The notes beneath the pieces were generated by a model. That model was not told where the DNA came from, searched no databases, and worked only from the letters and a program-made list of their open reading frames with translations. Below, one piece after another: positions 10,152 to 20,651 of a stretch of DNA of 64,000 bases (positions are counted from its first letter, which is position 1; each line of letters opens with the position of its first letter). The stretch is taken from positions 2,070,640 to 2,134,639 of the forward strand of contig NZ_KQ031391.1 in assembly GCF_000966285.1 (NCBI RefSeq), written 5' to 3'. A program made the translations under genes and the position numbers. The stretch comes from Pseudofrankia sp. DC12. Its GTDB lineage: Bacteria; Actinomycetota; Actinomycetes; Frankiales; Frankiaceae.

Positions 10152-11993
10152 GTGACGGTGACAGAGACCGGCGGTCGGGGCGGCGCCACGCCGAACGGGG
10201 CCGCGCCCGGGGCCGCGGCGGCGGCCGCCCCAGGTGCCGACACGCTGTCGAGCCCTCCGGTCGGCCGGGTGATGGGCACCGAGGAGACCACCCCGCTGCT
10301 GTTCCACGTCGCGCTCGACGGGGACAGCTACCTGCAGCTCGACGACGTGGTCGTCACGGTCCGGCAGGTTCCCGGCATCGGGCCGGTGATGACCGCCGGC
10401 GTCGTCACCCAGGTGGAGGCGCGGCACGAGGGGGCTAGCTTCGACTCGGACGTCTTCCTGATCGCCGAGGGCGTGCTGCCCGCGCAGGTGCAGGAGATCG
10501 CCGAGGTGACGACGACCCGGGTCGAGCCAGAGATCTACGTCCCGCCGCGGCCCGGCGCGCTGGTCCGCCGGGCGACCGGGGACGAGCGGGCGACCGCACT
10601 GTACTTCGACCAGATGGACCGGCGCGTCCCGGTCGGCCTCGGCCGCGACGGCACGCCGATCTACGTCAACCTCGAGTTCCTCGACGGCACCCGCGGCGCG
10701 CACGTCTCGATCAGCGGAATCTCCGGCGTCGCGACGAAGACGAGCTTCGCGCTGTTCCTGCTCTACTCGATCTTCCGGTGCGGGGTGCTCGGCCGGGCCG
10801 CGGTGAACGCGAAGGCGCTGGTCTTCTCGGTCAAGGGCGAGGACCTGCTGTTCCTCGACCACCCGAACAACCGGCTGACCGACGAGATCCGCAACGTCTA
10901 CGACCGGCTCGGCCTGCCGGCCGAGCCGTTCGCGTCCGCCGGCTTCTACGCCCCGCCGATGCCCGCCGACACCACCGGCCGGCCGAACGTGGCGACGCGG
11001 ACCTCCGGGGTGAGCGCGTTCTGGTGGACGCCGCTGGAGTTCTGCCAGGGCGAGCTGCTCCCCTACGTCTTCGCCGACGCGGAGGACGACCGCCAGCAGT
11101 ACACGATGGTCGTCCACCAGGTGACGAACCGGCTGCGGCAGGACGCGGTGCCTTACGGCGACGACGGCGCGGTGAAGCTGGAGGGCGAGGTTCTCAAGAC
11201 GTACGAGAACCTCGTCGACTTCATCATCGAGCGCGTCAACGACGAGGACGCCCGGGTCCGCTGGGCCGGTCAGGCGACCGGAGCCGGGACCGTGAACGCG
11301 TTCGTGCGCCGGCTGCGATCGTCCCTTCGGGCACTGCGGCCGCTGATCCGGGCCGACATCACGGACGCGCCCGGCCGGCGGGTCAGCACGGCCGATCACC
11401 AGGTGACGGTCGTGGACCTGCACAACCTGCCGGAACGGGCCCAGCGTTTCGTCGTCGGCGTCGTGCTGGCGGCGGAGACCCGGCGCAAGGAGGAGGCCGG
11501 GCCCGGCGGCCTGCTGTTCACGATGCTGGACGAGCTCAACAAGTACGCGCCGCGCGACGGGACCAGCCCGATCAAGGAGGTGCTGCTCGACATCGCGGAA
11601 CGCGGCCGGTCGCTGGGCATCATCCTGATCGGGGCGCAGCAGACCGCGAGCGAGGTCGAGCGGCGCATCATCGCCAACAGCGCGATCCGGGTGGTCGGCC
11701 GGCTGGACCCGGCCGAGGCGTCCCGGCCGGAGTACGGCTTCCTGCCACCCGGGCAGCGGGCCAGAGCCACGTTGGCGAAACCCGGAACGATGTTCGTCAC
11801 CCAGCCGGAGATCCCGGTGCCGCTGGCGGTGACCTTCCCGTTCCCCGCCTGGGCGACCCGCCCGTCGGAGAGCGCGGACGGCGGGGCCGCCGGCTCCCCC
11901 ACCGCGACGGGATCGGCGAGCCCGGCGACACCCGCCCGGCCCGACCCGTTCACCCTGCTGCCCGACCCCGACGACGACCCGCCGCCCTTCTGA
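10152..11993 (+). CDS. herA: HerA/FtsK-like DNA translocase ATPase
   Basis: A 613-residue ATPase. Residues about 45-180 form a beta-rich HerA-ATP-synthase-like barrel domain, followed by the RecA-like motor. The P-loop is GISGVATKTS (189-198), unusual because the residue before the lysine is Thr rather than Gly. Walker B is LLFTMLDELN, with acids near 460-461. GAQQTASEVERRIIANSAIR is the HerA C-terminal signature that ends in the arginine-bearing helix. In archaea HerA is a hexameric pump that feeds DNA ends to NurA. The GTG at 10152 is 10 bases after ggagg; the frame runs further upstream without family-like sequence. It is the first gene of the herA-mre11-rad50-nurA operon. A Pro/Asp-rich C-terminal tail follows the motor. 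Confidence 0.88.
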   Translation: MTVTETGGRGGATPNGAAPGAAAAAAPGADTLSSPPVGRVMGTEETTPLLFHVALDGDSYLQLDDVVVTVRQVPGIGPVMTAGVVTQVEARHEGASFDSDVFLIAEGVLPAQVQEIAEVTTTRVEPEIYVPPRPGALVRRATGDERATALYFDQMDRRVPVGLGRDGTPIYVNLEFLDGTRGAHVSISGISGVATKTSFALFLLYSIFRCGVLGRAAVNAKALVFSVKGEDLLFLDHPNNRLTDEIRNVYDRLGLPAEPFASAGFYAPPMPADTTGRPNVATRTSGVSAFWWTPLEFCQGELLPYVFADAEDDRQQYTMVVHQVTNRLRQDAVPYGDDGAVKLEGEVLKTYENLVDFIIERVNDEDARVRWAGQATGAGTVNAFVRRLRSSLRALRPLIRADITDAPGRRVSTADHQVTVVDLHNLPERAQRFVVGVVLAAETRRKEEAGPGGLLFTMLDELNKYAPRDGTSPIKEVLLDIAERGRSLGIILIGAQQTASEVERRIIANSAIRVVGRLDPAEASRPEYGFLPPGQRARATLAKPGTMFVTQPEIPVPLAVTFPFPAWATRPSESADGGAAGSPTATGSASPATPARPDPFTLLPDPDDDPPPF

Positions 11994-12064
11994 CCGGCAC
12001 CGATCTGACCAGCACCGATCTGACCAGCACCGTTCCGACGAGCACCGTTCTGACCCGCGCCACG
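11990..12064 (+). repeat. Five 15-base tandem repeats between herA and sbcD
   Basis: The unit CTGACCAGCACCGAT repeats five times with a few substitutions from the herA stop codon almost to the ribosome site of sbcD. The first TGA is the herA stop itself. It fills nearly the whole spacer, so the length of this leader may vary between strains. Confidence 0.85.
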
Positions 12065-12078
12065 AAGGACCGGTCGCC

Positions 12079-13260
12079 ATGAAGTTCCTGCACACGTCCG
12101 ACTGGCATATCGGCAAGTCCCTCAAGGGCCGCAGCCGGCTCGACGACCAGGAGGCGGTGCTGCGCGAAGTCGTCGGCATCGCCCGGGACCACGAGGTCGA
12201 CGCGGTGCTGGTCGCGGGAGACGTCTACGACTCGGCCGCCCCGTCGGCCGAGGCGCAGCGGCTCGCCGTCCAGACACTGCTCGGTTTCCAGCGCACCGGC
12301 GCCGAGGTCATCGTGATCGCCGGGAACCACGACCACCCGCGCGCGTTCGAGGCCTACCGGCCGCTGATGGGGGCGGCCGGGATCACGATGGTCGGCACGC
12401 CCCGGCGGGCGGACAAGGGCGGCGTGATCGCGTTCAACGCCCGCGGCACCGGCGAGCCGGTCCGGGTCGCGGTGCTCCCGTTCCTCTCGCAGCGCTTCGC
12501 GATCCGGGCCGCCGAGCTGGTCACCCAGACCCCGGCCCAGAACGCGGCCCGCTACGACCAGGTGGTCCGCGACCTGCTCACCGCCCTGCAGTCCGGGTTC
12601 TCCGACGAGGCCGTCAACCTGGTCCTCGCGCACCTGACCGTCACCGGCGGGCAGCTCGGCGGCGGCGAACGGCTGGCCCAGTCGATCTTCGACTACTACG
12701 TGCCGGCGACCGCGTTCCCCGCCGACGCGCACTACGTCGCGCTCGGCCACCTGCACCGCCGCCAGACCCTGCCGGCGCCCTGTCCGGTCGAGTACTGCGG
12801 CTCGCCGCTCGCGGTCGACTTCGGCGAGCAGGACAACACCCCCGTCGTCCGCGTCGTCACCGCCTCGCCGGGCACGCCGGCCAGCGGCGTCGACGTCCCG
12901 GTGACGACGGGCCGGCGGCTGCGGACCGTGCGCGGCACGGTGGCCGAGCTGGCCGACCGGGCCGCCGAGTACGGCGACGCCTACCTGCGGGTCTGGGTGC
13001 GGGAGCCGGCGCGGGCCGGGCTGCGCGAGCAGGTCCAGGAGGTGCTGCCGAACGCGCTCGAGGTCCGGATCGACCCCGAGTTCGCCGCCGAGGTGGCCGC
13101 GGCGGCCGGCGGCCGGCCGAGCCGCCCGTCCACCGGCCAGCGCGGACCGGGCGAGCTGTTCCACGAGTACCTGGGCAGCCAGAACGTGGCCGACGACCGG
13201 GTCGAGCGGCTGTTCGCCCGGCTGCACGACGAAACTGTCGGAGCCGAGCGGGATGGTTAG
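12079..13260 (+). CDS. sbcD: Exonuclease subunit SbcD / Mre11-like phosphoesterase
   Basis: A 393-residue calcineurin-like phosphoesterase, the nuclease half of the Mre11-Rad50 complex. The metal-binding motifs appear in order: DWHIG (residues 8-12), GDVYD near 49, GNHDH near 83, LAHLT near 184 and GHLHRR near 223. A C-terminal capping region follows; it should hold the DNA and contact the SbcC coiled coil. The ATG at 12079 follows ggaccggtcgcc. It is second in the operon, between herA and sbcC. With SbcC it should trim or open double-strand ends, with 3'-5' exonuclease and endonuclease activity. Nothing essential appears to be missing. Confidence 0.95.
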   Translation: MKFLHTSDWHIGKSLKGRSRLDDQEAVLREVVGIARDHEVDAVLVAGDVYDSAAPSAEAQRLAVQTLLGFQRTGAEVIVIAGNHDHPRAFEAYRPLMGAAGITMVGTPRRADKGGVIAFNARGTGEPVRVAVLPFLSQRFAIRAAELVTQTPAQNAARYDQVVRDLLTALQSGFSDEAVNLVLAHLTVTGGQLGGGERLAQSIFDYYVPATAFPADAHYVALGHLHRRQTLPAPCPVEYCGSPLAVDFGEQDNTPVVRVVTASPGTPASGVDVPVTTGRRLRTVRGTVAELADRAAEYGDAYLRVWVREPARAGLREQVQEVLPNALEVRIDPEFAAEVAAAAGGRPSRPSTGQRGPGELFHEYLGSQNVADDRVERLFARLHDETVGAERDG

Positions 13261-13323
13261 CCCGAACACCGCGCCGCTGGTGGCGGCGGCGTGCCGGCCG
13301 GGCTGGGCGGGGGTGGGGCACTG

Positions 13324-16300
13324 ATGCGGCCGGTACTGCTGGAGATAGCCGGGTTCGGCTCGTTCCGGGACGCGGCGGCGGTGGACTTCGCGGACGCGGA
13401 CTACTTCGCGCTGGTCGGGCCGACCGGGTCGGGAAAGTCGACGGTCTTCGACGCGATGACCTTCGCGCTGTTCGGGTCCGTGCCCCGATGGAACCACCGC
13501 GGGCTGGTCTCGCTGGCGCTGGCGCCGACGGTCGCGCGCGGCACCGTGCGCCTGGTGTTCGACGCGGCCGGCGACCGGTATGTCGTCGCGCGGGAGCTAC
13601 GCCGGCTCGGCAACGGCAGCGTGACGGTGCGCAACGCGCGGCTGGAGCGGCTGGCCGACCCCGCCGGCCTGGCCGCTCCCGGCGCGCCGACCGAGGTCGT
13701 GGCGGCGGACTCCGAGGTCAGCCGGGCGGTCGAGACCCTGCTCGGGCTCAGCTTCGAACACTTCTGCGCCTGCGTCGTACTCCCGCAGGGCGAGTTCGCC
13801 GAGTTCCTGCACGCCAAGCCGGCCGACCGCCAGAAGATCCTCACCAGGCTGCTCGGCCTCGGCGTCTACGACGAGATCCGGGCGGCGGCGAACGACCAGG
13901 CCAGGGCCAGCGGGCACGGCGCCAAGGCGCTCGACAAGCAGCTCGCCGGCTACCAGGACGCCACCGAGGACGCGGAGCGGGCCGCCGCCGCCCGGGTGGA
14001 CACGTTGGCCGAGGTGGTGGCCCGCGTCGACACGGCGCTCGGCGAGATTGCCACCCGGGCCGCGACGGCCGAGCTGGCGACGGCCGAGCTGGCCCGGGTC
14101 CAGAACGAGCGGGACCTGCTCGCGGCGGTCCGGATGCCGGCTGACGTGGTCACGCTGACGACCCGGCTAGCCGCTACCGCCGCGACCGCCGCCACGGTGG
14201 CCGCGGCCCGCCTGGCCGCCGAGCGGGTCGACAGCGCGGCCCGGTCGGACCTGGCTGCGGCGCCTGACCGCGCCCCACTGGAGCAGGCCCGCCGCGACCA
14301 CGCCGAGCTGGCCCGCCTCGCGGCCGCCCAGCCCGGGGCACAGGCGACCCACACCGCCGCCCGGACCACCCTCGACCGGCTCACCGCGGCCGTCACCGAG
14401 ACCCGCGCGGCCCGGGACGCGGGTGCCGCCACCCGCGACGAGGCCGCCCGCGCGGCCCAGGCCGTCGCCGACGAGGTCGCGCGGCTGCGCGCCGAGCGCG
14501 ACCGGCTGGCCGCCGTCCGCACGCCGCCGGGCCTCGTCGAGCTGGCCACGCGGCTGCGCGCCGCCCAGCGTGCCGCCGCGGAGTCCGGCGCGCTGCGGCG
14601 AGCGGCGGAGCAGGCCGACACCGACGCGAGAGCCGCCCTCGACGCGGCACCCAACCGGGCGGCCCTGGAACGCGCCCGCGATGGTCACGACGAGCTCACC
14701 CGGCTAGCGCCGGCCCGGGCCGCGGCCGACACGGCGCACGCCGACGCCCGGCGCGGGCTCGGCGCGGCGGTGGCCGCCGTCGAGGCGGCCCGCCACGCCC
14801 GCGCCGCGGCGGCGGCCGCGCTGGAGCAGGCACAGACCGCCGACCTGGCGGCGGCCCTGCGCCCCCACCTCGTCGCGGGTGAGCCGTGCCCGGTGTGTGA
14901 GCAGGCGGTCGCCACGCTGCCCGCGGCCGCCGGCCATCCGGTGGCGCTCGCCGCCGCGCGGTCCGCTCTGGACCGCGCCGCCAAGGACCTCGACGCGCGG
15001 GAGCGCCGGTCCGCGGACGCGGGCCGCGCCGAGTACGAGACCCGGCTGCGGCAGCGGCAGCTGGTGGACCGGGTCGACGAGCTGCGCCGCTCACTCGCGG
15101 CCCAGGACGCCGCCGAGGTGGCCGCGCAGCTCGCCGAGGTCACCCGGTGCAAGCACGAGGCGGCCAGGGCGGCGCGCGAGCTGGCGGCCACCCGGGTCGA
15201 CGCGGACGCCGCCGACCACGCCGCGGCCACGCTGGTGACGGCCGGCTCCCGGGCTCGCGCCCAGCTGGTCGAGGCCCGCGACCCGCTGGTCGGCCTCGGC
15301 GCGCCCGGCCTGGTCGACGGCGACATGGCCGAGGGCGGGGACGGGCTCGGTGTCGACCTGGCCGCGAGCTGGGCACGGCTCGTCGGCTGGGCCGGCGAGC
15401 TCGCCGGGCGACGATCCGCGGAGCTGGGCGCCGCCGCGGCCCGAGACGCCGCCGCCCGCGACGCGCTGAGCGCCACCACCGCCGCCCACGCCCAGGCCGC
15501 GAGCACCGCGGAGCGGGCGGAACGCGACCAGGTCGCGGCCCTGCACGACGAGCGCACCGCCGCGAGCCGGCTGGAGTCGCTGACCACCCGGGTCACCCAG
15601 CTGCGCGAGACCCTCACCGGTCTCCCGTCGGCCGCGGACGTGACGGCGACCCTCACCGAGCTGGACCGGCTCGGGGCGAACGCCAAGGCCGCCGACGAGG
15701 GCCTGCGCGCCGCTCGGGCCGAGGCTGACGCCGCCGACGCAGCGCTGCGCGCCGCCCAGGACGCGCTGCGCGCCGCCCAGTCCGCGCTCGCCAGCACCCG
15801 GGACACCGTGGTCGCGCTCGGCGCACCCGCGCTCGGCGGCCAGGACCTGCTGGCTGACTGGACGGCCCTGACCCGCTGGGCGGCCGCCGAGGCGACCACC
15901 CGGGACGACCACCTTCCCGCGCTCGCGGACGCCGTCACCCGGGCCGGGCAGGCCAGGGACGAGACGGCCCAGGCGCTCGTCGAGCTGCTCACCGCGCAGA
16001 GCATTCCGACAGCCGGCCTCGTCACCGAGTCAGCGGCGCGGGCGGCGTCGGCGGCGCTCGAACGGGCCCGCGCGCAGCGCGACCGGGTCGCCGAGCGGCG
16101 CGCCGAGGCGGCCGGGGTACGCGCCGAGCTCGCGAAGACCCGCGAGGCCGAGCAAATCGCCCACCAGCTCGGCGTGCTGCTGCGCTCGGACCGCTTCCAG
16201 CGCTGGCTGGTCGCCGCCGCGCTCGACCTGCTGGTCGAGGACGCGTCGCGGACCCTGCTGGAGCTGTCCAACGGCCAGTTCGAGCTCACCCACGACGACG

Positions 16301-16671
16301 GGGACTTCATCGTCGTCGACCACGCCGACGCCGACTCCCAGCGCCCGGTGCGGACGCTTTCCGGCGGCGAGACCTTCCAGGCGAGCCTCGCGCTCGCGCT
16401 GGCGCTGTCCGCCCAGCTCACGACGATGGCCGCGGCCGGCGCCGCCCGGCTCGACTCGATCTTCCTGGACGAAGGCTTCGGCACCCTCGACGACGCGACC
16501 CTCGACACCGTCGCGAGCACGCTGGAGAACCTCGCGGGCGGCGCCGGTGTCGGCGGTGGCCGGATGGTCGGGATCGTGACCCACGTCCAGGCGCTGGCCG
16601 AACGGGTCCCCGTCCGGTTCGCCGTGAGCCGCGACGAACGCACCTCCACCGTCATCCGGGAGACAGCATGA
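13324..16671 (+). CDS. sbcC: Exonuclease subunit SbcC / Rad50-like SMC ATPase
   Basis: A 1,115-residue Rad50/SbcC protein. The N-terminal lobe has the P-loop GPTGSGKST and the Q-loop LPQGEFAEFL. Two very long Ala/Arg/Glu-rich coiled-coil arms run from about 200 to 1,000. The zinc hook CPVC sits at residues 522-525, midway, as expected for Rad50 dimer linkage. The C-terminal lobe has the ABC signature LSGGETFQASLALAL (about 1,011) and Walker B IFLDEGFGTLD (about 1,045). The ATG at 13324 begins MRPVLLEIAGFGSF, the conserved first strand. The last four bases overlap the start of the next gene (ATGA), implying translational coupling to the NurA-like protein. Confidence 0.96.
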   Translation: MRPVLLEIAGFGSFRDAAAVDFADADYFALVGPTGSGKSTVFDAMTFALFGSVPRWNHRGLVSLALAPTVARGTVRLVFDAAGDRYVVARELRRLGNGSVTVRNARLERLADPAGLAAPGAPTEVVAADSEVSRAVETLLGLSFEHFCACVVLPQGEFAEFLHAKPADRQKILTRLLGLGVYDEIRAAANDQARASGHGAKALDKQLAGYQDATEDAERAAAARVDTLAEVVARVDTALGEIATRAATAELATAELARVQNERDLLAAVRMPADVVTLTTRLAATAATAATVAAARLAAERVDSAARSDLAAAPDRAPLEQARRDHAELARLAAAQPGAQATHTAARTTLDRLTAAVTETRAARDAGAATRDEAARAAQAVADEVARLRAERDRLAAVRTPPGLVELATRLRAAQRAAAESGALRRAAEQADTDARAALDAAPNRAALERARDGHDELTRLAPARAAADTAHADARRGLGAAVAAVEAARHARAAAAAALEQAQTADLAAALRPHLVAGEPCPVCEQAVATLPAAAGHPVALAAARSALDRAAKDLDARERRSADAGRAEYETRLRQRQLVDRVDELRRSLAAQDAAEVAAQLAEVTRCKHEAARAARELAATRVDADAADHAAATLVTAGSRARAQLVEARDPLVGLGAPGLVDGDMAEGGDGLGVDLAASWARLVGWAGELAGRRSAELGAAAARDAAARDALSATTAAHAQAASTAERAERDQVAALHDERTAASRLESLTTRVTQLRETLTGLPSAADVTATLTELDRLGANAKAADEGLRAARAEADAADAALRAAQDALRAAQSALASTRDTVVALGAPALGGQDLLADWTALTRWAAAEATTRDDHLPALADAVTRAGQARDETAQALVELLTAQSIPTAGLVTESAARAASAALERARAQRDRVAERRAEAAGVRAELAKTREAEQIAHQLGVLLRSDRFQRWLVAAALDLLVEDASRTLLELSNGQFELTHDDGDFIVVDHADADSQRPVRTLSGGETFQASLALALALSAQLTTMAAAGAARLDSIFLDEGFGTLDDATLDTVASTLENLAGGAGVGGGRMVGIVTHVQALAERVPVRFAVSRDERTSTVIRETA

Positions 16672-17894
16672 GCGCCCTCGCGGCGGTCGCCGCCAGGGGT
16701 GGGATGCAGTTCAGCATCGACCCCTGGGACCCGAGCTACGGCACCTCGGTCACGGACGACTTCAAGGAGTCCACGGCGAAGATCGAGGCCGGGGTCGAGG
16801 AGGCTCCGTCCGCCTGGCGGCCGGTGCCGCTGCCGGCGGCCCGGGGCCGCCTCGTCGCGGCGCCCGAGGCGGTGTTGTTCGTCGACGGGGTCCGCCGGGA
16901 GGACGCCCGCGGCTGGATCCATGACCTGGCGCCGGCCGACACCCGGGCGACCTCGGCCGTCCCGGCGGTCTGCGCGTCGTTCGCCAGCGGCGTCGTCTGC
17001 AGCTGCGCGCTCGGCGCCCACCTGCTGACCGCGCGGGTGGAACGCGGCCTGTTCACCCCGGCGCGCCATGCCGGTGACATCGCCACGCAGGGTGGCACCT
17101 ACCGGTTCAGGCCGGTCACCGACGACGGCCCCAACGGCCTGAACCTCGCCATCCAACAGGCCATGACGACCTTGGAGATCTCCACCGCCGCCGGCGCGCG
17201 CCACGGCCACGCCACGGTCCCGGGCGCCGACGGCCGAGTCTGGCCCGGGCCGGACGGCGGCGCCGGACCAGCGCCGGATGACTCCTTCGCCGACGGGCCG
17301 GCGTGGCCTTCCGACACCGAGGCCCAACCGGCATGGGGCGACCCGTTCGCTGCCGGGCCGACCGGGCCGTGGCCCCGGCAGCGGCTCGCCGAGCACCCGA
17401 CGGACCAGCCCGGCGACGCGGCCCCGGATCGGAGCGCCCTGCTTGTCGTCGACGGCCCGTTGCGGGGCAGGACGCACATGCCGCGCACGCTCGGCTTCAT
17501 CAAGACGCACCACTCGCGGTACCTGGAAGCGCCCCAGCATGAGGTGGTTGGCAGGCTCGAACCGGGCGAACGCACACCGGTCTTCATGATGGGCACCAAC
17601 TGGGACCGCTTCACCTGGTACCTGCGCCTGCCGAGCAGGCCCGGGGCGCCCTGGGCCGGCGTCGCCCGGGTCGAGTGCCCGGCGAGCCTGCCCGCGGCCG
17701 ACGCGATCGGGCTGGCCGACCTCAGCCAGGTCGTGCTCCCGCGCTTCGCCTCGCACGAGTTCAAAGACGGCCGAGCCCCGCAGAACCTCTACCCCATCGC
17801 GGGCCTCGAACGAGCGCTGCGCCGCCGCCTGGGCGACCGCCAGCTCATGTACCGCTCGCTGCGCCGCGCCGCCGGGCCAGTGCGCCGAAACTAG
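16668..17894 (+). CDS. nurA: NurA-like nuclease
   Basis: A 408-residue protein that I assign to the NurA family by pattern and place. An acidic first motif sits at the end of a strand, VLFVDGVRRE (Asp 73). A second strand carries LLVVDGPLRG (Asp 262), followed by GFIKTHHSRYL, and the end has LPRFASHEFKDGRAPQNLYP and GLERALRRRLGD. These match the RNase H-like NurA order: Asp strand, second Asp strand, basic strand and C-terminal helix. A Pro/Gly/Asp-rich insert (about 185-250) separates the two halves. NurA resects DNA ends in complex with HerA. The ATG overlaps the sbcC stop by four bases. Family membership is well supported; catalytic details are inferred. Confidence 0.75.
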   Translation: MSALAAVAARGGMQFSIDPWDPSYGTSVTDDFKESTAKIEAGVEEAPSAWRPVPLPAARGRLVAAPEAVLFVDGVRREDARGWIHDLAPADTRATSAVPAVCASFASGVVCSCALGAHLLTARVERGLFTPARHAGDIATQGGTYRFRPVTDDGPNGLNLAIQQAMTTLEISTAAGARHGHATVPGADGRVWPGPDGGAGPAPDDSFADGPAWPSDTEAQPAWGDPFAAGPTGPWPRQRLAEHPTDQPGDAAPDRSALLVVDGPLRGRTHMPRTLGFIKTHHSRYLEAPQHEVVGRLEPGERTPVFMMGTNWDRFTWYLRLPSRPGAPWAGVARVECPASLPAADAIGLADLSQVVLPRFASHEFKDGRAPQNLYPIAGLERALRRRLGDRQLMYRSLRRAAGPVRRN

Positions 17895-17911
17895 GATGTA
17901 ATCTTCCGACC

Positions 17912-18838
17912 GTGATCCGCGACAAATACCCCGTCATCCACGTCACGTCGTGGGATGCCGTCGCGGACGAGCCGGGCGGTCAGGACGAAAAGATCTGGCT
18001 ACGGCACCCTGAAACCGATGACCGTTGGCTTTACAAGCCGCCCACGATCAAGGATGGGCACGTTCATGGGGAGGACTGGGGCGAGAAAGTCGCGAGCCGC
18101 CTGGCAAGGCTCCTGACAGTCCCCTGCGCCGAGGTCGAACTAGCGGTCCGCGATGGCGCGCCGGGTTGCATCTCACGGAACCTTCGTCCGCCCTCCTATG
18201 AGATGCAGGGGGGCGCGGTGCTGCTCTCTGAGCTGCTGCCGGACTACAGGCCAGGTGCGGAGGGGATCAAAGGCCGTCCTGGACACTCACTGACCAACAT
18301 CAAATTGGCGCTCGAGGGGGGCACTTTGCCCACCAGACTCGCCATGCCCGTCCACTTTCACCGCATTTGATGTTTTTGCCGGCTATCTGGTTCTCGATGC
18401 GTGGATCGCCAATCGGGACCGGCACGATGAGAACTGTGAGTTCTCATTCCGACAGCACCGTTTCCCCTGGACGAGCCTCGAAGGCTCTGCGGAGCGTACG
18501 ACCAGGCGGGATGCCTCGGATACAACCTCCAGGACTCTCGCAGGACCACCTACCTACTCCAACCGGGCGGGGTCGAGCGATGGGTCGAGCGCGGCACAGC
18601 CTGGCGATTCGAACACGTACCAGGTCAGCCCCTCACGCTGGTCCAGCTCGCCCAGACGGGGCTACGGATGGTCAGCCCGCAGGTACGGAACCACTGGTTG
18701 GGCAAGCTGTCTGCCGTGACCTCAACCGTCGAGACCACGATCGTCACGGGCGCGGCAAAACTGTCACACCCAGCCGCTACATTCGCGACCAAGGTCCTGC
18801 AGATCAACCGAGGGAGGCCGCTCCGTGATTATCAGTAG
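17912..18838 (+). pseudogene. HipA-like serine/threonine kinase, two compensating frameshifts
   Basis: The GTG at 17912 starts a protein beginning VIRDKYPVIHVTSWDAVADE, with a nucleotide-binding lysine in WLYKPP and a conserved GEDWGEKVASRLARLL. Frame continuity breaks at the G6 run 18316-18321. The next frame reads FTAFDVFAGYLVLDAWIANR followed by DRHDEN, the kinase catalytic loop. A second break near 18434-18440 returns to the first frame, giving RRLCGAYDQAGCLGYNLQDS through to a TAG at 18836. Unshifted, the frame stops at 18370 and again at 18439. The gene is therefore inactive, recently damaged, or the result of two sequencing errors. Its end overlaps the HIRAN gene. HipA kinases phosphorylate protein targets in persistence and toxin-antitoxin systems. 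Confidence 0.7.
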
Positions 18839-19670
18839 TGCGACAGTCGCACGCCGCGATGGGGAAGCCGCGACGCCCTCCACCCGCCGTCTCGCGGTGA
18901 CCTGGCAGCACCCAGGAAGACGCCTGATCCAGCCGATCGGAATCCTGTCGTTCGACGGCCAGCGCTATGGCTTCCACTATCTGGAAGACGTGAAAAACGT
19001 CGATGGATTTCGACCTCTTCTCGGGTTCGCGGACCTTCGCGACACCTACACATCCACACGCCTTTTTCCACTGTTTTCACAACGCGTCATGGATCCCGCC
19101 AGACCTGATTACCAGCGATACGTCACCCGCCTCGGACTCAACGCCGACGCAACCCCATGGGAGCAGATATCCCGGTCGGAAGGGCGCCGCGAGGGCGACA
19201 CGCTACAGCTCTTCCCAGAGCCCATCGTCAATCCATCGGGCCTCATGGAATGCGCTTTTCTTGTTCACGGCGTACGCCACATCATCGGCCGACACCTCTC
19301 GGGGGCAATAGTTCACCGAAATGACCTCAAGCAAGTCCTGGCCGATATCGGATCGGGAAGCTCCCTGCTCCTAGAGGAGGAACCAGACAACCCGGTCAAT
19401 GCTCGAGCTCTGCTCACGACCACGGAGTCCGGCTTCCCGCTGGGGTGGCTGCCAGACCTTCTGGTCGACGACGTGCGCAGCCAGGACTTCAGCCGCGCCA
19501 GGGTGACCGTGGATCGAGTAAACGGCCCAGAGGCACTGTGGCACCTACGCATCCTCGCTAGGCTCGCGGTGCCGGTTCCTCCTGGGCACATCCCCTTCTC
19601 ATCATCGTCCTGGCGACCCTACTCCGGGGGACCTTCCCCGAGGTCTCAGTACGAGAAGACGTCCGGGTAG
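18825..19670 (+). CDS. HipA-N-like/HIRAN domain protein
   Basis: A 281-residue protein. Residues about 25-150 read like the N-terminal half associated with HipA kinases (GILSFDGQRYGFHYL, RPLLGFADL, LFPLFSQRVM, RPDYQRYVTRLGL). Residues about 175-245 resemble a HIRAN domain (EEEPDNPVNARALLTT, GFPLGWLPDLLVDDV), a fold that binds DNA ends in helicases. The GTG at 18825 has gggagg 7 bases upstream and overlaps the upstream kinase by 14 bases, so the two were a translationally coupled pair. Its 3' end overlaps the convergent exonuclease gene by 25 bases. The role as regulator or antitoxin partner of the kinase is an inference. The base composition is visibly less GC-rich than the herA operon, suggesting transfer. 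Confidence 0.65.
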   Translation: MIISSATVARRDGEAATPSTRRLAVTWQHPGRRLIQPIGILSFDGQRYGFHYLEDVKNVDGFRPLLGFADLRDTYTSTRLFPLFSQRVMDPARPDYQRYVTRLGLNADATPWEQISRSEGRREGDTLQLFPEPIVNPSGLMECAFLVHGVRHIIGRHLSGAIVHRNDLKQVLADIGSGSSLLLEEEPDNPVNARALLTTTESGFPLGWLPDLLVDDVRSQDFSRARVTVDRVNGPEALWHLRILARLAVPVPPGHIPFSSSSWRPYSGGPSPRSQYEKTSG

Positions 19671-20272
19671 CCTCCGATCTCAAGAAACACTCTTGAAGGC
19701 AGGAACTCGCAGCAGCGCGCGTAGAGGTCCGCGAGGCCGGCGGTGACAAGCCTCTGCCGAAGTACCCGCAGCAGCGCCGGAAGGTAGATAACGTCCGTTA
19801 CGGCATATTCAAGCTGATCATCACTTAGAGCATTGGCAGTCCAGTCACTCACTCGGATCGCGCCCTTGAGAATATCAACGGAAAAATTCTCCCGCAGCAG
19901 CGCCTGGAGGCTGTGCTGCTCGTTCCCGACGGACGGCTCCAAAATCTTGGAGGCCACTTTCGTACAGGAAATCGATGCGGGACTCACCTTCCATTGCGAG
20001 ATCATAAAGCGGAGGTCGAACGGAGCATGATGAAGGACTTTCTCGACATTCGGGTCAGCCAGCAGACCCATGAGTCGTTCCGGCCGGCGAAGCCCAACCT
20101 GAACCACAGCAGGCGGAAACCCCTCGGCGAATAGCTGGCAGGTGCCAATCCTGTCAGTTTGCCAGGAAAGTCCTGACGTCTCGATGTCCCACGCGACAAG
20201 TCCGGCAGCGCCAAGATCGTTGGCCAATGAGCCGGGTATGTCTTCCTCAAAAGTGGTCACACCGTCATCCAA
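19646..20272 (-). CDS. RNase D-like DEDDy 3'-5' exonuclease
   Basis: A 208-residue single-domain exonuclease. The four acidic metal ligands and the tyrosine are in place: WDIETSGL (Asp and Glu, Exo I), HHAPFDLRF (Asp, Exo II), and YAVTDVIYL (Tyr-x3-Asp, Exo III). It lacks the HRDC domains of true RNase D, and at about 210 residues it is much shorter than that enzyme. It is like stand-alone nucleases that trim RNA or DNA ends. The frame starts at a TTG (20272); a GTG at 20260 is an alternative and neither has a strong ribosome site. It is convergent with the HIRAN gene and overlaps its last 25 bases. It closes the nucleic-acid-processing island. Confidence 0.85.
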   Translation of the reverse strand: MDDGVTTFEEDIPGSLANDLGAAGLVAWDIETSGLSWQTDRIGTCQLFAEGFPPAVVQVGLRRPERLMGLLADPNVEKVLHHAPFDLRFMISQWKVSPASISCTKVASKILEPSVGNEQHSLQALLRENFSVDILKGAIRVSDWTANALSDDQLEYAVTDVIYLPALLRVLRQRLVTAGLADLYARCCEFLPSRVFLEIGGYPDVFSY

Positions 20273-20651
20273 ATCCGCCAGAATACTGTTTCCACGAACC
20301 TATCGCGCCGCCGACCCAGTCCCGACCAGGGCCGCGTTGCGCAGAGGCGTTCCACGCCACCGCGATCTACGCAGGCAGGCGCTGGCGCGGGAACGCCGGG
20401 TGTACAGCCGTTGCCAGACGGCGATCCGTGCGGCGCCAGCGGCCGGTAGAACTGGCGTGCCGCTGGGCCGGCAGTCCTGCTAGGCACGCTCCCAATACCA
20501 GCCGATTGCGCGCATCCTGTGCGGGGCTGGCCGCCGTGGGCCGAGGGGTGCGCAGCGGCCGGCCAGGCGGGCGGAACGGGTCGCGGGCACGCGCGGGGCG
20601 GGTGAGGCTGAGGCGCCCAACCGTTCCAGCCCGCGCCGGAGGGTGCTCAGA
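20273..20651. other. Intergenic stretch, nothing recognised
   Basis: About 380 bases between the divergent exonuclease and Bcr/CflA genes. It must hold both promoters. No gene, repeat or strong hairpin was seen; the open frames are arginine- and proline-rich shadows. Confidence 0.4.

Follow-up and report, generated by a model that had tools for sequence, protein, structure and literature searches.

Does a soil actinomycete carry a complete DNA-end-resection machine of the kind that is encoded by one operon in archaea? In Sulfolobus and Pyrococcus, the herA-mre11-rad50-nurA operon brings together the activities of HerA-NurA and Mre11-Rad50. The same four activities are clustered in Pseudofrankia sp. 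DC12 (genome of 6.88 Mb, one contig), within a stretch of 64,000 nucleotides (contig NZ_KQ031391.1, positions 2,070,640 to 2,134,639), referred to here as the window. The four genes have the following window coordinates:

herA, 10152-11993, + strand, 613 aa, hexameric-type DNA translocase
sbcD, 12079-13260, + strand, 393 aa, Mre11-type nuclease of the module type
sbcC, 13291-16671, + strand, 1126 aa, Rad50-type ATPase with one CPVC motif (zinc hook)
nurA, 16668-17894, + strand, 408 aa, RNase H-like nuclease

This cassette is probably a self-contained bacterial machine for DNA-end resection, in which SbcCD would start the process and HerA-NurA would extend it. The grounds for this reading are the identities of HerA and NurA, their invariant active-site residues, a conserved and co-occurring gene set, correlated distances among the proteins, a relative that has lost HerA and the module SbcD and keeps the nurA tail alone, and the resection of ends in vitro by the NurA-HerA complex of Deinococcus radiodurans (PMC9960219).

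The original prediction, made from the letters of the window, had proposed four co-directional genes with these identities and a nurA coupled to sbcC. All four open frames were found on the forward strand, the identities were borne out, and the coupling was located as an ATGA overlap. The other junctions are 85 nt (herA-sbcD) and 30 nt (sbcD-sbcC), the latter becoming 63 nt if translation of sbcC starts at an alternative in-frame ATG at 13324. The gap between herA and sbcD is mostly filled by repeats of about 15 nt (window 11990-12055), as noted by eye.

Family libraries were insufficient to identify HerA and NurA, which were recognized by profiles of their relatives together with the predicted folds. 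The window HerA has zero Pfam matches at E ≤ 1 and weak PADLOC matches (mad8, 6e-9; HerA, 5e-5). The profile of its relatives matches PDB entry 7f6d_B with E 7e-197, and its predicted fold matches 7wrw in Foldseek with E 7e-65 and 46% identity. The match to both structures is full-length and covers the HAS barrel and the RecA-like core with the Walker A and B motifs and the ASCE acid. The residues K196/T197 (Walker A), D231 (ASCE acid) and D460/E461 (Walker B) do not vary in any of the 30 rows aligned. Pfam HAS-barrel matches 3 of the 30 HerA members (best E 0.0021) and DUF87 matches 2 (best E 0.085); the window HerA is matched by neither. The residues K196 and D460/E461 align with K175 and D487/E488 of D. 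radiodurans HerA, the mutation of which impaired activity (PMC9960219).

At E ≤ 1, the window NurA has no match in any of the three libraries Pfam, NCBIfam and PADLOC, and at E ≤ 10 there is still none in Pfam. The original prediction of a NurA-like fourth protein was nevertheless upheld when it was checked by the profile of relatives and by the predicted fold, both of which place it in the RNase H-like NurA group, with a Deinococcus protein and Thermotoga 1zup as the closest solved relatives. The residues D73, E170, D262, K279 and R369 are invariant in 42 of 42 aligned rows, and E170 and D262 are presumably catalytic acids. PF09376 matches 24 of the 42 NurA members (best E 9e-6), the window protein not being among them, and a PF09376 search of the source genome gave zero matches. 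Three of the invariant residues (D73, K279 and R369) align with D53, K201 and R309 of D. radiodurans NurA, and activity was impaired when these were mutated (PMC9960219). By its sequence and predicted fold, the fourth protein is a NurA-type nuclease with the key residues kept, and nuclease activity is predicted. It is very improbable that it is a catalytically dead or repurposed relative; the missing Pfam match and a low-confidence insert of about 68 residues in the predicted structure (residues 186-253) would favor this, but the five key residues are retained in every aligned row.

The other two proteins are bacterial in type. SbcD scores 184 bits with TIGR00619 (cut-off 77.65) and matches PF00149, whereas its score as Sulfolobus Mre11 (Mre11_Sulfo) is 56 bits. 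SbcC matches PF13476 and PF13558, and matches TIGR00618 with E 4.5e-71, under the curated cut-off of that model. The metallophosphatase motifs of SbcD and the Walker motifs, signature and zinc hook of SbcC are all present; CPxC occurs in 49 of 50 module SbcC frames longer than 600 aa. The term "archaeal-style" used in the original prediction therefore holds for the gene set and fails for descent: HerA and NurA are nearest to Deinococcus and Thermotoga proteins, and HerA shows 46% identity to the Deinococcus protein compared with 14% to Sulfolobus 4d2i (structure alignment).

The linkage of all four genes, which defines the archaeal resection operon, was found in the window and at other loci. 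Sixty loci were fetched from 87 other NurA-positive genomes (order, class and phylum samples), and 52 of them are complete, in two orders: herA-sbcD-sbcC-nurA in 33 and nurA-herA-sbcD-sbcC in 19. The gene set is thus conserved in relatives as had been expected, and with its recurrence in two orders it is more than chance. Eight loci are incomplete. One (L062) is half of a set that is split over two contigs, the other half being L296; in four (L088, L090, L091 and L096), HerA is encoded on a different contig or at a distant place in the genome; two (L120 and L121) come from the diverged family f19; and L081 keeps only nurA and the C-terminal part of sbcC. A scan of named genomes with one peptide pattern gave 550 relatives; among the 80 retained are Micromonospora, Nonomuraea, Pseudonocardia, Kineosporia and metagenome-assembled genomes (MAGs) named Gemmatimonadetes and Gammaproteobacteria. 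All four genes in the first order were present at 57 of these loci, SbcD-SbcC-NurA at 11, SbcC-NurA at 10 and NurA only at 2; the loci span up to 9 kb on each side, many end at contig ends, and at least 8 of the 80 are genomes already in the 60-locus set.

HerA and NurA also occur together at the level of genomes. In the phylum sample, NurA was found in 68 of 296 genomes and HerA (E ≤ 1e-20) in 85; HerA accompanies NurA in 67 of the 68. Fifteen of the 18 genomes with HerA and no NurA belong to family f19, in which HerA is diverged and NurA may be missed. This diverged HerA occurs in 18 genomes of f19 (e.g., G130, G141 and G184). Eleven listed f19 genomes have no PDDEXK_1 match at E ≤ 1e-6, which hints at different end-resection machinery. 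Over 92 loci, HerA, SbcD and NurA have correlated distances (rho 0.87-0.94, uncorrected for shared species history). The modules of the MAGs named Gemmatimonadetes and Gammaproteobacteria group together within the actinobacterial module SbcD in the tree, and their HerA, SbcD and NurA are mutually nearest neighbors, as expected if the cassette moves as a block. In one Parafrankia genome (G312), only a nurA tail with stops is left, and HerA and the module SbcD were not found.

A further sbcD-sbcC pair lies near 5.55 Mb in the source genome, and the 14 kb fetched with it gave no herA or nurA match. When 107 SbcD sequences were placed in a tree, 38 of the 39 stand-alone ones fell into a single group (SH-aLRT 100), and the window SbcD lies outside it. 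The remaining stand-alone-labelled sequence, L216 from a g200 genome (G305), falls among long-branch module rows. A single clade for all module SbcD was rejected (p-AU 0.022); one row of the tree, L121, rests on a 41-bit match and is probably not an SbcD. The claim that stands is limited to the grouping of those 38 stand-alone rows, the ordinary actinomycete type, from which the module SbcD is set apart as a separate lineage. One genome with the cassette has, in addition, a second and more distant HerA (30% identity) that adjoins a second SbcD (G146:C15:13773-16306), and this is possibly another type of HerA-SbcD cluster.

In the proposed mechanism, SbcCD of the Mre11-Rad50 type would bind a double-strand end and clip it, removing hairpins or blocks. 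The SbcCD of the cassette, as distinct from the stand-alone SbcCD of the genome, would serve in this step. The HerA hexamer would then thread onto the duplex and push it, driven by ATP, into the NurA dimer, where a pin of NurA would split the strands and mainly the 5' strand would be digested. A 3' single strand would be left for RecA. The HerA-NurA complex, the order of the steps, the strand polarity and the use on the cell's own breaks are inferred, and the order of action in particular is borrowed from archaeal work and the Deinococcus model.

Several observations weigh against this reading. Deletion of nurA-herA in D. radiodurans gave about tenfold higher resistance to high doses of UV and mitomycin, as reported (PMC9960219), which is unlike the behavior of a simple repair factor. 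At 17 loci, the 400 nt preceding herA contain none of the SOS and RecA-NDp patterns tried, the patterns being those that we assume to represent these DNA-damage motifs. The source genome has four PDDEXK_1 matches, consistent with the presence of other resection enzymes. Genome G310 has an SbcD that resembles the module type (58% identity) and lies at contig ends, and neither HerA nor NurA was matched there; this is either the opposite kind of remnant to that of G312 or a fragmented assembly. The cassette is also dispensable, since its distribution in the class is patchy and it is absent from 13 of 13 genomes of the sister genus g200. Within the order, NurA turned up in 14 of the 35 genomes, namely in 8/8 of the own genus, 5/6 of g204 (Parafrankia; one of the five being the G312 remnant) and 1/1 of g201, and in none of g200 (0/13), g205 (0/5), g202 (0/1) and g203 (0/1). 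The class sample gave 22 of 393, of which 14 are from the own order. The idea that the cassette replaces enzymes of the AddAB/AdnAB type was rejected because 275 of 296 phylum genomes match PDDEXK_1, which indicates that coexistence is common; PF12705 is an imperfect proxy, as the E. coli control had no match to it.

It is unlikely that HerA-NurA and SbcCD are two separate machines sharing an operon, in which case HerA-NurA would act on its own, like that of Deinococcus, and the second SbcCD would be a general paralogue. We take the sbcCD genes of D. radiodurans to be unlinked to nurA-herA, so that NurA-HerA would work there in the absence of a linked sbcCD. Separate action is also suggested by a gap of 0.7-4.6 kb between HerA and SbcD at 10 of the 49 loci having both. 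Furthermore, among 46 carriers picked for the SbcD count, 33 have a single SbcD over the TIGR00619 cut-off (12 have two, and G587 has none), so that the module SbcCD may be the only one there and do general SbcCD work. These points are opposed by the persistence of the linkage in two gene orders, by the position of the module SbcD apart from the 38-row stand-alone group and by the loss of the unit in G312. In the D. radiodurans study, nurA-herA is handled as a two-gene operon (PMC9960219), in contrast to the four genes here.

A mobile defence module, in which the same enzymes would attack the ends of incoming phage or plasmid DNA instead of repairing the chromosome, is rather unlikely. The flanks are varied: no family common to more than 5 of 52 loci, and hence no fifth conserved gene, was found among GC3-filtered open reading frames (ORFs) up to 4 kb from the cassette. 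A PADLOC search of 123 flanking ORFs from 32 loci (157 picked) gave no family matching more than two at E ≤ 1e-10; ten further large flanking ORFs gave matches in 5 (4 loci), several of them widely used helicases, kinases and methyltransferases, all as raw counts with no control set of random loci. Ku end-joining domains were matched by 2 of the 123 ORFs. Matching right-flank DNA is retained in six genus mates. In two of these (G324 and G328), the DNA that starts at about 20.57 kb in the window, just before an MFS gene, comes no more than 0.3 kb after nurA, and in the four others, DNA matching the window from 21.95 kb onward begins at most 0.1 kb after nurA. In four Parafrankia loci, the match to the window is confined to the cassette. 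A further reading, likewise rather unlikely, is a horizontally mobile, dedicated four-protein machine, with a special SbcCD committed to HerA-NurA beside a housekeeping SbcCD, the plasmid and island copies of which would give immunity against foreign ends.

Such a plasmid copy is found on the Streptomyces linear plasmid NZ_CP134205.1 (402000-446000; L300), where the complete cassette lies beside the full JetA-D set of a type II Wadjet system and other defence genes; the stretch includes a pPIWI-RE gene and one for a type IIG-like helicase. Plasmid records gave 4 NurA matches, one in an 11.85-Mb record that resembles a chromosome. Neighboring nurA-like and herA-like matches were seen on the Nostoc sp. 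UHCC 0870 plasmid NZ_CP091916.1 (L299). A phage origin was rejected, with 0 NurA matches in 50,697 phage records and HerA in 3 phage records at about 26% identity; 47 stretches of viral contigs fit the search pattern and none is a relative.

The immediate neighborhood of the window cassette had been described as containing a HipA/HIRAN pair and a DEDDy exonuclease. The exonuclease was confirmed:

19646-20272, 3'-5' exonuclease (basis PF01612)

Support for HipA-like DNA came from matches in two plasmids of Mycolicibacterium that carry the annotation HipA (72% identity, covering 12% of the query), and neither HIRAN nor HipA had a Pfam match in the three ORFs scanned. These genes lie in a strain-specific insert of lower GC and about 2.7 kb (17.9-20.57 kb; 17895-20566) that is lacking from the close relatives G324 and G328, and they therefore carry little information on function.

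Among the closest known systems are the defence systems TdpAB, HerA-DUF4297 and SIR2-HerA; the ORFs of the window that were scanned near the cassette include no SIR2 or DUF4297 effector. The view that bacterial HerA otherwise occurs with defence effectors did not stand, as Deinococcus has HerA-NurA (PMC9960219) and Oceanithermus profundus has all four genes, with nurA-hepA followed by sbcD and sbcC downstream (PMC5448004). The Oceanithermus cluster apparently equals the second arrangement here (19 of 60 loci); it belongs to a different phylum, is presented there as a single species having recruited SbcD and SbcC, and differs from the window, where nurA is last. The D. radiodurans NurA-HerA structures (7f6d, 7wrw) are the closest solved relatives of HerA and share key residues with the window proteins. 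An interaction between Mre11 and HerA is reported for Sulfolobus (PMC2288612), and a review notes NurA and HerA homologues in Actinobacteria (PMC8708640). The paper searches turned up no title or abstract on this four-gene set in actinomycetes, and an earlier mention is possible. Within the literature searched, three things appear to be new: the wide occurrence of the cassette in actinobacteria, the SbcD lineage that it has in addition to the ordinary one, and the copy next to Wadjet on a plasmid.

The NurA on the Streptomyces plasmid is annotated as a hypothetical protein and Pfam misses 18 of 42 NurA members, so the system is easy to overlook. Judging from the papers found, work on HerA-NurA with Mre11-Rad50 has been done mostly in heat-loving archaea and Deinococcus. 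The named mesophiles that carry the set (Micromonospora, Nonomuraea and Pseudonocardia) would make the hand-over from Mre11-Rad50 to HerA-NurA accessible to ordinary genetics, and the genomes with two SbcD would show directly if one of the SbcCD pairs is dedicated to HerA-NurA.
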